The notes beneath the pieces are model-generated. The model saw only the letters and a program-made list of their open reading frames with translations, was not told where the DNA came from and made no database searches. Made by a program: the position numbers and the translations under genes. 64,000 nucleotides of DNA from Deltaproteobacteria bacterium (GTDB lineage: Bacteria > Desulfobacterota > Desulfuromonadia > Geobacterales > Geobacteraceae): positions 1-64,000 of the forward strand of contig JAJZUQ010000012.1 in NCBI GenBank assembly GCA_021848385.1, in the 5' to 3' direction. Below, one piece after another: positions 57,282 to 64,000 of the stretch (position 1 is its first letter; each line of letters begins with the position of its first letter).

Positions 57282-58718
57282 CTACTTCGTGTAGTTATCC
57301 GCAAAAAGCCGTTGTTTGTCGCCGAAATTGTCGCTGAAAATTTCGGTGGGAACAACGGCTATTTTTTTGCCGGCCTGCTCCGCCGGTTCGGAGTCGGCCA
57401 ACGGTCCCGCCGCCAGGAACGCCTGGAATTCCCCTTCGAGTAGGTAATCCCGCCCCATGTAGTCGAGAATCAGCTCCCGTTCTTCATACAGCCCGTCCCG
57501 GTATTTGCCGTACTGGCGGTAGATCATCCCCTTGTCAGCATGGCCGGTGAGGCCAGTGAGCCGTTCGTGGTCGACCTTGAGAAGCATTGACCAGGCTATC
57601 CCCGTGTGCCGGGTGGAATAGCCGACGCGGTGGTCAAGACCGGCCGCTTTGACGGCGGGTCCCCAGACGTACTTGTAGTACTCGGCGTAGCTGAAGGGGC
57701 TGCCGTCGGCCATGGTGAAGACAAACGCGCACTCGTCACTTGACTGGCGCAACGCGGCATCGAGAACCTGCCGCAGCTTTGCCGTAATGGGGTAGTTGCG
57801 CTTGCGCATTGTCGTCTTCAGGTAGGGCGAAATTGTTCCATCTTTGTGCCGTTTGAGTTGGATACGAACCTTGTCGGTACCAACTGCCTGCTTTGTTAGT
57901 GCTTCTATCTCCGAGCCGATCGCCATTGTCAGGAGCATGAACTCGGTGACCGGTCCGTAGAAGGGCTCGATATGGGCAAGAAGCATCTGCCATTCAGAGG
58001 GAAGAAATGCCTTGCGGGGCTCGGCGTCGCCGTCCTCGCTCAGCAACTCGGTGAGGGGCGTCTGTTTGGCTTGGCGAATCTGGTTGACTTGTTCCAGTTC
58101 GGTGATGTACTGGCTCACCGAGACGAACGGGTCGTCAAGCTGCCACCCCCAGCGGGAATTGGCCGAATTCCAGATCCGTTTTAAGACGGTCAAGACGTGT
58201 CTCTTGCGCTTGACCGAGACCGGCTGACCTTTCCGGGCCCCCCGCAGGATATCAAGGCTGCCGAAAAAACGCTCCACCTCGATGGTGTTGAGCTGGGCGA
58301 AGTGGAGTCCACCAAGCCCGGCCAGGATCCGCTTGATGGCGCTCTCATAGTCCGGAGTCTTGGTCAGCTCCTTAAAGTTGTCCAGCCACTCTTCGAGCCA
58401 TTCGGCGACATATTCCCTAATTGTCACCTCATCGGCGCGGGGCCGGTACTGCTGTCCCTCGAGTCGGGAGAAATACTTTTTCTTTTCCGGATCGGCATTT
58501 TTGAAAACCTCGGCGAAGCGGAACGTTCCTTCTTGGATGTGCGAGTAGATTCCGTCGAGCATTTTTCGGATGCCGGCGCGGTGGTGCGGATTGTCCTCCA
58601 GTCCGGTTGAGAATGTGTATCTGGTCTTGTAATAAGTGATACTGACCCGCAGCCCTTCGTACTGATTTCGTGCCGGCAAAATCGAGCCAAACGGTCGTTT
58701 GTTACGCCTGTACATCAT
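57282..58718 (-). CDS. Tyrosine-recombinase integrase
   Basis: C-terminal YSTRHTGIAWSML...LTGHADKGMIYRQYGKY; ends 13 bp from tRNA-Gly. Confidence 0.88.
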   Translation of the reverse strand: MMYRRNKRPFGSILPARNQYEGLRVSITYYKTRYTFSTGLEDNPHHRAGIRKMLDGIYSHIQEGTFRFAEVFKNADPEKKKYFSRLEGQQYRPRADEVTIREYVAEWLEEWLDNFKELTKTPDYESAIKRILAGLGGLHFAQLNTIEVERFFGSLDILRGARKGQPVSVKRKRHVLTVLKRIWNSANSRWGWQLDDPFVSVSQYITELEQVNQIRQAKQTPLTELLSEDGDAEPRKAFLPSEWQMLLAHIEPFYGPVTEFMLLTMAIGSEIEALTKQAVGTDKVRIQLKRHKDGTISPYLKTTMRKRNYPITAKLRQVLDAALRQSSDECAFVFTMADGSPFSYAEYYKYVWGPAVKAAGLDHRVGYSTRHTGIAWSMLLKVDHERLTGLTGHADKGMIYRQYGKYRDGLYEERELILDYMGRDYLLEGEFQAFLAAGPLADSEPAEQAGKKIAVVPTEIFSDNFGDKQRLFADNYTK

Positions 58719-60326: not shown

Positions 60327-61286
60327 TTACTTGATGCTCATTGCCAACAGTACGCGAGCCAAATCGAGTACGTGGCCGCCTAGCTCTTGGGATTGAGATG
60401 CCTTCCGCAGCACGATGATCTCCTCACCTTTTACCTGAACGACGCCGACATAAGAAGGAATAGCGTTTAATTCGCTTGACGGTGAGGATACGACGACCCA
60501 TATCCGGTCAAAATACGGGGCCATGGCCTCTATCTCAGGTAGCATACGCTCGCTTCTTACAACGGTCTTGATTGCAAGTCCGTGGATTTCCAGGGCTCCA
60601 CCTGTGCGTTTAATGACCAACAGAGCTTCTGGAACTGATTCGCCAGGGAACTGGTGTCGGGTCAATCGCATGATCTTGTACAGTGCGATGTTTTCCATGG
60701 CCAGCCAGTTGCTACGTTTGTTCAGCGCATTCAATGCTTCGGCTTGGAAGACTTTGGCAGGCTGTCTCTTCATTGCGTTATCGAAGCTTATCCGACCCCT
60801 GCTCTGGGGATTGTCTTTGACAACATCTCGATAGGCGGTCCAGATGTACCGAAGCTCGGCTCTCTTGATCGTTCCCTCGAAGATTCGTTGGGCAAGCGAT
60901 CGGACCTTATCTTCCGACGCGGCTAATTCTATCCGCCGCAGCAGGTCGAAAGATTCTGGGCTGATATGGTCAGCAAGCTCTTCCAGGGGAGGAGCCTCCA
61001 TCCCCCAAGAAATAAGCTTTGGCCTGAGATACTCATCATAGGTTCGCGCCGCACGGTGGTAACTCCAGACCATGGTTGGACCGAGACTGAAAGTAAAATG
61101 GGATCTCCCGATTACCCAGTCGGTGAAGGATTTGGCGCCCTCCTTGCTCCAGTATTCATTTTGCTCGATCAGTACGAGCAGCCTGCCGATTTCGAACGGA
61201 GAGCGGCGACTACCTGACCGAATGGCCTGGAGTTCATCTTTGATGAAGTTGTTTTGGTTGCCGGTGCTGTTCATGATATATATCAT
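60327..61286 (-). CDS. Hypothetical accessory protein
   Basis: 319-aa ORF, start at 61286 or 61274; no family assigned with confidence. Confidence 0.7.
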   Translation of the reverse strand: MIYIMNSTGNQNNFIKDELQAIRSGSRRSPFEIGRLLVLIEQNEYWSKEGAKSFTDWVIGRSHFTFSLGPTMVWSYHRAARTYDEYLRPKLISWGMEAPPLEELADHISPESFDLLRRIELAASEDKVRSLAQRIFEGTIKRAELRYIWTAYRDVVKDNPQSRGRISFDNAMKRQPAKVFQAEALNALNKRSNWLAMENIALYKIMRLTRHQFPGESVPEALLVIKRTGGALEIHGLAIKTVVRSERMLPEIEAMAPYFDRIWVVVSSPSSELNAIPSYVGVVQVKGEEIIVLRKASQSQELGGHVLDLARVLLAMSIK

Positions 61287-62102: not shown

Positions 62103-62137
62103 GCGTCTCTGCCGAATTTTATTTTCGGCAGAGACGC
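62103..62137 (+). terminator. Strong hairpin in ORF-poor region
   Basis: GCGTCTCTGCCGAA-tttta tt-TTCGGCAGAGACGC, 14-bp perfect stem; no long T-run after it. Confidence 0.6.
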
Positions 62138-62182
62138 CGTGTAACTTACTGAAATCATTGAATAATTTCCACTGATGTCAAA

Positions 62183-62530
62183 AAGCGCCTGCGCTTAACA
62201 GGACGAAGAGAAATACAACTGCCTCAAGCGGATTACATAAGAATGCGATCAGCAGTAACCACCTGTAGGTCGCCGGAACGGAGAACGACCTGACGCTTGG
62301 ACGTTGCTGAAATGTTGTGCCCCAATGAGTGAGAATCGGCAGGGGGAAAACTGCCGAAGCAACCCGCATGAATCGGATTGGAGCCCGTGCTCACCACACG
62401 GGAACGCCGCCGACCGGGAGACCGGATGCGAAAGCTCTCAATGACTGGCTGGTTTGGGCCTGGATACTCGACAGCTCTGTTAGAGCTGCGGAGCATCTGG
62501 GCGGCGCTCACGATATCCAAACCAAGACAT
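62183..62530 (+). ncRNA. Candidate structured RNA / leader upstream of recombinase gene
   Basis: At least nine perfect complementary pairings read by eye, including a GAGA tetraloop hairpin and a 7-bp pseudoknot candidate. Confidence 0.55.
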
Positions 62531-62541
62531 GGAGGCACAAC

Positions 62542-63600
62542 ATGAAACTGGCAAATCAACCCAAGCTCTCACGACACGCGCAGAAGATGTTGGCACAGGT
62601 CAGGCAACACTTCGGCAAGGCGGAAACCCGTAACAAAGGTGAGAAGACCTACAAGCGGCACAAATCGAATATGTCGCGCATCGCCAGACACTTGGTAGCC
62701 AACGGTTATCAAGATGCCCGAGATCTCAAGCTGAAAACTTACCGGGCGATAATGGATGAGGCGAAGGAGGAAGGACTGTCGAAGTCGGCGCTCGAATCGT
62801 TGCATAGTACCTGCCGCAAGTTGTCAGCCGGCATTGGTAAACCGACTATGATTCCAAGGAAATCGTCCGATAGCGGCGCTATGGGTACTAAAGACTACTA
62901 CCGAACGCGAAACGAACGGGTGAAGCCCCAACATCATACATCATGGGAGGCTCGGATGGCGCTACAGGCTAAGATTGAGGCCAAGGACAAGGCTGCCGGT
63001 ATCGCCGCCAGTATGTCCTACCATTCTGGCGTGCGCAAGGAGGAGAGCCTCGCAAGTTGTGAATTCCTCAAAAAATGTTCCGATGGGAAGCTTTACACGA
63101 CCGTCGGTGTACGGCAAGCCGGAGAATACAGGCAGATAGGCTTTCAACAAATGCGCTACGCTTTCTCTGGCAATCGCAAAGACGCGGCATTTGAGAGGGA
63201 CTACGTAAAGACCATGCGGACAGGACAGGAATACATCGTTGCTATCTGGACAAAGAACGGTAAGCTGCGGCTCATTCCCGTCTTCGACAGAGAACAGCGG
63301 GCAACAGCCATTGCGGCTCAACAGTATATAAGAGACAACAAGAAGCTGGCCAGAGAACTGGGATCGGAGGTGAAGGTAAAGTCAGTCATCACGCCAGGAA
63401 AGACTCGCAATCAGGGCTATGATCACCTTGAATATGTACTTAGGTGTTGCGGGATGACAAAAAAGGAAGCGGGGTTTAGTCTTCACGCCGACCGGACGGA
63501 ATTCAATCTCAGGATGAAGGCGGCTGGATTCTCGCCGGAAGAGAGAATCCTTGCATTAGGACACAATGATCTGCGAAAACTCGCTAACTACGGCGGATAA
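62542..63600 (+). CDS. Divergent tyrosine recombinase (integrase domain-containing protein)
   Basis: SD ggagg 62531-62535, ATG 62542; catalytic pattern GVR(K)...TKNGKLRLIPV...HADR...LGHNDLRKLANYGG (R, K, HxxR, H, Y). Confidence 0.8.
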   Translation: MKLANQPKLSRHAQKMLAQVRQHFGKAETRNKGEKTYKRHKSNMSRIARHLVANGYQDARDLKLKTYRAIMDEAKEEGLSKSALESLHSTCRKLSAGIGKPTMIPRKSSDSGAMGTKDYYRTRNERVKPQHHTSWEARMALQAKIEAKDKAAGIAASMSYHSGVRKEESLASCEFLKKCSDGKLYTTVGVRQAGEYRQIGFQQMRYAFSGNRKDAAFERDYVKTMRTGQEYIVAIWTKNGKLRLIPVFDREQRATAIAAQQYIRDNKKLARELGSEVKVKSVITPGKTRNQGYDHLEYVLRCCGMTKKEAGFSLHADRTEFNLRMKAAGFSPEERILALGHNDLRKLANYGG

Positions 63601-63604
63601 CTTC

Positions 63605-63637
63605 GAAGGCCCTCAGGCTAATTCCTGAGGGCCTTTT
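63605..63637 (+). terminator. Rho-independent terminator after recombinase
   Basis: gaaggccctcaggctaattcctgagggcctttt. Confidence 0.88.
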
Positions 63638-63667
63638 CGTGTGCTGTTATATCAATATGGCAAAAAA

Positions 63668-63712: not shown

Positions 63713-63892
63713 TTACTTGATGTAACGCGAGACGAGGCCGCCAAGAAATGCCAGCAAATGCCTCCCGTCCAGGGCGTGGTAAACTATTTGACCGTCATAC
63801 TTGATGGCCCAGCCCCGATGGTCGCAGATGACTTCAACGCATTCACCATTCTCATCCAATGACCGTACTATGTAGCTAACGTCATTCATCAT
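63713..63892 (-). CDS. 59-aa accessory protein (absent from supplied ORF track)
   Basis: MMNDVSYIVRSLDENGECVEVICDHRGWAIKYDGQIVYHALDGRHLLAFLGGLVSRYIK*; SD ggagaagg upstream; shares bidirectional terminator. Confidence 0.65.
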   Translation of the reverse strand: MMNDVSYIVRSLDENGECVEVICDHRGWAIKYDGQIVYHALDGRHLLAFLGGLVSRYIK

Positions 63893-64000
63893 GGTCCTTC
63901 TCCTTTGTTAGTGGTTTTTCTGCCCCTGTGGCAGTCCCTATTCGTGCCGGGTTTCCCAATTCACCTCCCTTTTGCACGGGCTTCTCCGGCGCCTACCGGA

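Follow-up and report, generated by a model that had tools for sequence, protein, structure and literature searches.

A structured RNA family upstream of tyrosine recombinase genes in Geobacterales and a candidate divergent leader on a genomic island

RNAs linked to recombinases are already known as such, among them the bridge RNA of IS110, a noncoding RNA encoded next to the recombinase gene (PMC11208160, PMC11208158). In Salmonella genomic island 1 (SGI1), sgm-sRNA, which is encoded between the origin of transfer (oriT) and mpsA, acts in trans and is essential for transfer, and the authors of that work argue that its effect is not exerted via mpsAB expression (PMC9299015). Here we describe the region directly upstream of a divergent tyrosine recombinase gene near the end of a 64,000-nucleotide stretch of DNA (positions 1 to 64,000 of contig JAJZUQ010000012.1, assembly GCA_021848385.1, Geobacteraceae), referred to below as the window, together with the corresponding regions in related genomes. 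What the analysis adds is a strongly covarying and apparently undescribed family of RNAs associated with a site-specific recombinase, as well as a DNA palindrome found upstream of members of this recombinase family in several classes of Proteobacteria.

A conserved RNA before the recombinase gene in related genomes

The comparison set consisted of about 35 recombinase relatives from related genomes, and the covariation data given below describe the leaders of these relatives, not the copy in the window. Between close locus pairs the conserved unit of DNA begins at roughly −440 and extends as far as the gene does. Individual folds of the leaders share a common architecture, in which helix P2, often GACC/GGUC, encloses P3 (with H3a and H3b), H4 and H5 to give a five-helix core, followed on its 3' side by an unpaired CYUACACUCAAC (motif ACACUYAAC), a variable hairpin termed H6 and then the Shine-Dalgarno sequence (SD). 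The core and ACACUYAAC are located 40–230 nt upstream of the recombinase gene, with the core immediately 5' of the SD, on the same strand and in one copy per genome. The motif type also reaches plasmids, as AACACTCAAC on an IncP plasmid and AACACTTACC on a Salmonella plasmid, and occurs as AAAACTTACC in Rhizobiaceae. A pseudoknot between ACACUYAAC and a hairpin loop was rejected as a universal feature, being discernible by eye in group B only.

The relatives' leaders fold with z-scores down to −10.8, against values mostly near 0 for controls from coding sequence (CDS). In alignments made from sequence alone, 77% of the two-sided changes at predicted pairs in the leader were still Watson-Crick, compared with 34–35% in the CDS, and the fraction of pairing kept after a double change was 0.76 in the core, 0.83 in the SD-proximal part and 0.26 in the CDS; as pairs of sequences are non-independent, these figures are effect sizes and not exact probabilities. 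Among one-sided changes the ratio of G-U to A-C was 2.2:1 in the core and the SD-proximal part, in keeping with a folded sense strand, and 1:1 in the CDS. In alignment A8, double changes occurred at 39 of 40 pairs and 90% of cells were paired (35–40% in slid controls). Because both A8 and a further alignment, A6, were fitted to the structure, the recovery of leaders across groups by covariance models constitutes the stronger evidence.

A model built from four leaders of a single subgroup (R1) recovered the leaders of other subgroups at the right place and on the right strand, with E-values of 2e-6 for subgroup F, 3e-4 for A and 1e-3 for B, and of 2e-6 to 0.02 overall. With the iteratively built models R2 and R3, held-out leaders were recovered down to 3e-11, one of them in another order. 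Every one of the 30 matches that R3 gave over 546 kb at E < 0.02 was a leader, and in genome-wide searches at E < 0.01 the same held for 13 of 14 matches, all 13 belonging to this recombinase; the sole other match (G137:C75) resembles coding region and is probably due to chance. Cumulatively, the relatives carry a real structured RNA on the sense strand directly before the recombinase start, and its occurrence is linked to that of this recombinase. The models are usable for finding further copies.

The first-pass annotation of the window, which had proposed a recombinase-associated structured RNA, had considered that its stems might not covary among homologues or that the region might prove to be a translated N-terminal extension. 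The leaders of homologues in fact covary strongly, and the extension is excluded, as the N-termini of homologues align with Met 62542 and conserved reading frames are absent upstream of it. The proposal is borne out in part: it holds for the family, by covariation and by covariance models that detect the RNA with high specificity at the homologous place in the other Geobacterales homologues, whereas the leader in the window itself goes unrecognised by these models. Membership in a known motif had also been suggested, with int-alpA, which likewise lies near an integrase gene, as the example; a covariance-model search of Rfam 15 at permissive E-values gave no match to int-alpA or any other motif for the window or for 15 homologous loci. 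No description of this RNA was found in a literature search that covered few subscription papers, and the family is apparently previously undescribed.

The upstream palindrome and possible folding as single-stranded DNA

Farther upstream, the window carries a second kind of element:

62103-62137, no strand assigned: outer perfect palindrome GCGTCTCTGCCGAA-ttttatt-TTCGGCAGAGACGC (arms of 14, loop of 7), a candidate DNA site for the recombinase (site of recombination, oriT or operator)

In nearly all relatives a perfect palindrome with a conserved core (GCGTCTCT/GTCACT) lies at −300 to −560, the core reading GCGTCTCTTGC or GCGTCACTTGC in Geobacterales and GTCACT in plasmids. The arms, of 9–23 bp, covary, and the loop measures 2–91 nt. 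Twelve of 13 proteobacterial plasmid relatives possess the palindrome, compared with 36 of 276 random windows. The exact form GTCTCTTGC occurs once per genome and solely at recombinase loci, and an attC-like cassette array is thereby ruled out for this commonest form. Since the palindrome part is without the RNA-type substitution bias, we take the palindrome to be probably a DNA site. At about −300 in three loci (L078, L087 and L073), the palindrome-arm sequence AGCAAGAGA recurs in a second hairpin between the palindrome and the RNA core, which suggests additional binding sites.

Considering these palindromes, with their conserved arms and variable loops, the conserved fold might itself work as single-stranded DNA (ssDNA), either as a component of an origin of transfer or replication (a single-strand initiation site or an ssDNA promoter) or as a folded recombination site beside the palindrome. 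Such a role would be in keeping with the origin-adjacent upstream noncoding gaps of 0.5–2.7 kb in the plasmid relatives and with the lack of a G-U excess in the Rhizobiaceae relatives, and folded ssDNA also tolerates G-T wobble better than A-C. However, the G-U bias shifts sharply between the palindrome part (0.74–0.83) and the core with the SD-proximal part (2.2), the core is always directly adjacent to the SD, and recognisable partner sites were not found elsewhere in the genome. We regard this explanation as improbable.

The leader in the window and possible control of translation

Between the palindrome and the recombinase gene, the following features were located in the window:

62183-62196, + strand: small stem AAGCG/CGCTT; complementary, a pairing absent from the minimum free energy (MFE) fold and with no further support
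62249-62310, + strand: hairpin TCAGCA[..AGGTCG[CCG-GAA-CGG]CGACCT..]TGCTGA, 5' of the main domain and present in the MFE fold
62312-62327, + strand: 5' strand of helix P1, ATGTTGTGCC-CCA..TG (MFE fold, shuffle test)
62336-62357, + strand: hairpin TCGGCAG..CTGCCGA, in an H1-like position
62384-62402, + strand: hairpin CCCGTG..CACGGG (fold and complementarity)
62414-62425, + strand: hairpin CCGG-GAGA-CCGG (fold)
62451-62457, + strand: GGTTTGG, partner of CCAAACC at 62517-62523, a nested helix in the MFE fold
62464-62472, + strand: motif-like ATACTCGAC, which by its pattern appears to resemble the unpaired family motif ACACTCAAC / ACACTTACC
62472-62488, + strand: hairpin CAGCTCT-gtt-AGAGCTG, in an H6-like position 3' of the motif-like ATACTCGAC
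62528-62543, + strand: 3' strand of P1, including the SD GGAGG (62531-62535) and the first start-codon bases (MFE fold, shuffle test)

All the stems listed by the first-pass annotation are present and perfectly complementary, and the region folds better than shuffled sequence: the MFE z-score is −4.0 for 62306-62546, with 1 of 200 dinucleotide shuffles equally stable, and −3.8 for 62140-62546, with none of 100 shuffles as stable. The final 330 nt before the recombinase gene likewise give z −4.0, compared with +0.3 for the opening 330 nt of the CDS. The pseudoknot that had been assigned to CCAAACC found no support, as it appears in neither the MFE nor the centroid structure; its pairing with GGTTTGG is nested and becomes pseudoknotted only when CGCCGCC/GGCGGCG is formed, a helix absent from both structures. 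The strongest long-range pairing, between ATGTTGTGCC (62312-62321) and GGCACAACAT (62534-62543), had been missed. It extends to the helix P1 of about 15 bp (62312-62327 with 62528-62543), which covers the SD and two bases of the recombinase ATG and whose strength was reached by none of 200 shuffles.

With the outer palindrome, a many-stem domain, ATACTCGAC, which departs from the family motif by one A-to-G difference in its core, and the SD-burying helix, the window appears to keep the family layout. Its sense strand nevertheless scores at most 1.5 bits with R2 and at most 0.3 bits with R3, against 11–111 bits for about 30 relatives, and from its sequence the window copy is at best a divergent member of the family, unproven as such. 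It may alternatively be ordinary GC-rich, palindrome-rich island DNA from which the conserved RNA was lost or in which it was replaced. The lack of a covariance-model match would agree with this, as would the reverse strand, which folds even better (z −5.1), as palindrome-rich DNA is expected to. Against it stand the sense-strand z of about −4, the apparently retained layout with an SD-burying helix far above shuffles, and the intact catalytic residues of the recombinase, and we give this explanation very little weight.

We think it probable that the recombinase either acts together with its own RNA or is under the control of that RNA. Because of the position, the strand and the occlusion of the SD, our first choice for the RNA is a cis-acting leader that controls translation of the recombinase, to which we assign somewhat less than an even chance. 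The region would then be the control region of a DNA-processing module of a mobile island, consisting of palindrome, structured RNA and tyrosine recombinase, and the recombinase mRNA would carry the RNA as its 5' leader, folded into a closed domain that limits ribosome access. The recombinase would be made only once this fold had been opened or bound, a step perhaps carried out by the recombinase or taking place as the island is excised or transferred. The window version, in which the 15-bp helix would hide the SD and the start codon, may represent the same layout with a diverged fold. Across the family the unpaired probability of the SD is 0.24, compared with 0.38 for control genes (p 0.004).

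Several observations count against translational control. SD pairing elsewhere in the family is no stronger than in shuffled sequence (mean z −0.2), and family-wide sequestration of the SD by P1 was rejected, being not significant outside the window, with the effect on accessibility only modest. The spacing between core and start codon ranges from about 40 to 120 nt, occlusion of the SD would not require so elaborate a fold, folding of the same strand as ssDNA would give a similar G-T bias, and none of R1, R2 and R3 recognises the window leader. The reading as a cis leader and that as an RNA partner of the recombinase, taken up below, remain close.

The recombinase, its island and known systems

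The recombinase sits on a genomic island, in its last contig stretch:

57195-57269, + strand: tRNA-Gly, at the island end
57282-58718, − strand: separate phage-type integrase, at the island end
62542-63600, + strand: divergent tyrosine recombinase of 352 aa (PF12835/PF12834 type) with conserved catalytic residues

Its catalytic set is complete, R165, K238, H315, R318, H341 and Y350 being invariant columns in alignment A1, and a PDB profile search matched an XerC-like protein, XerD, XerH and IntI4; an AlphaFold model (pLDDT 52) was too poor to use. SAM-like N-terminal domains were found in the family, Phage_int_SAM_1 in 9 and SAM_2 in 6 of 15 members. Homologues are sporadic in the order (35 of 141 genomes, about one quarter), mostly in a single copy per genome and often near other integrases, and more distant homologues occur on plasmids of Alpha- and Gammaproteobacteria. 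Among the genome contigs, viral contigs and plasmids searched, no close relative of the window recombinase was present. Copies broken by stop codons were noted at G009:C54, G057:C524 and G129:C753. A role as plasmid Rep, considered for plasmid pSIO1, was discarded, as other plasmids with the gene have their own Rep.

Elsewhere on the island lie a KfrA_N-type plasmid protein (59412-60170; E 6e-8) and a 319-aa protein (60327-61286) of marginal McrBC / sce7726 resemblance (E 0.05–0.07), possibly related to defence. A protein similar in appearance to the KfrA_N-type one adjoins the recombinase in another locus, L066. A terminator-like hairpin (AGGCCCTCAGG..CCTGAGGGCCTTTT, 63603-63638) stands 3' of the recombinase, and a small minus-strand open reading frame (63720-63897) at the contig end. 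The 3' end of the tRNA-Gly recurs as a perfect 27-bp repeat on another contig (G000:C61:602-628), where it is followed by the apparent C-terminus of a second, similar integrase, which suggests tandem islands at one tRNA, and sibling genome G002 holds several more 23-bp copies of this end. Upstream of the recombinase in L066 and L069, on islands that share this recombinase module, is an apparent type I restriction-modification M subunit with partners, as judged by the sequence start. On the L067 and L063 islands, which carry the same RNA-plus-recombinase module, the second recombinase resembles a large serine recombinase and not a phage-type integrase.

Our second choice, which we consider possible but on the unlikely side, is that the RNA is a trans-acting partner of the recombinase similar to sgm-sRNA, that is, a processed RNA encoded between an oriT-like palindromic site and the recombinase gene and serving island processing or transfer, not protein expression. 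It would be favoured by SGI1, in which oriT, sgm-sRNA and mpsA have the matching order and orientation and transfer depends on the RNA (PMC9299015), and by the 456-bp region with oriT directly upstream of mobK in pIGRK (PMC8152469). The elaborate fold, the extension of the unpaired motif to plasmids of other classes, the strict tie of the RNA to this recombinase on islands with a separate integrase, and the location of the gene alongside a type IV coupling-type protein on pSIO1 point in the same direction. On the other hand, the likeness to sgm-sRNA is one of position, and the known tyrosine-recombinase-like (TR-like) relaxases have no core-binding domain (PMC9299015), while this family has SAM-like N-terminal domains.

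Among known systems, IS110 involves a different recombinase superfamily. The TR-like relaxase modules (MobK, MpsA, TcpM) share with this locus a noncoding region with inverted repeats that immediately precedes the gene. In pIGRK this region of about 450 bp precedes mobK, as here, but no RNA has been reported and the protein is described as being without a core-binding domain (PMC8152469). As the family described here has the core DNA-binding domain that known TR-like relaxases lack (PMC9299015), we do not class the protein as a relaxase. SGI1 offers inverted-repeat DNA, an RNA and a tyrosine-recombinase-like gene on an island with its own integrase, as observed here, its noncoding RNA being about 280 nt long (PMC9299015, PMC6414798) and compared with the present family in position; MpsA is without a core-binding domain and needs MpsB, whereas here a single protein has both kinds of domain. 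More broadly, though we think it rather doubtful, a widespread class of tyrosine recombinases of islands and plasmids may act as ribonucleoproteins, in which the conserved structured RNA of the enzyme's own leader would be a required subunit when transfer or recombination takes place at the GTCACT/GTCTCT palindrome; sgm-sRNA of SGI1 would be one instance. The comparison raises the testable question of whether the RNA need of SGI1 transfer is general for mobilization modules of the tyrosine-recombinase type.
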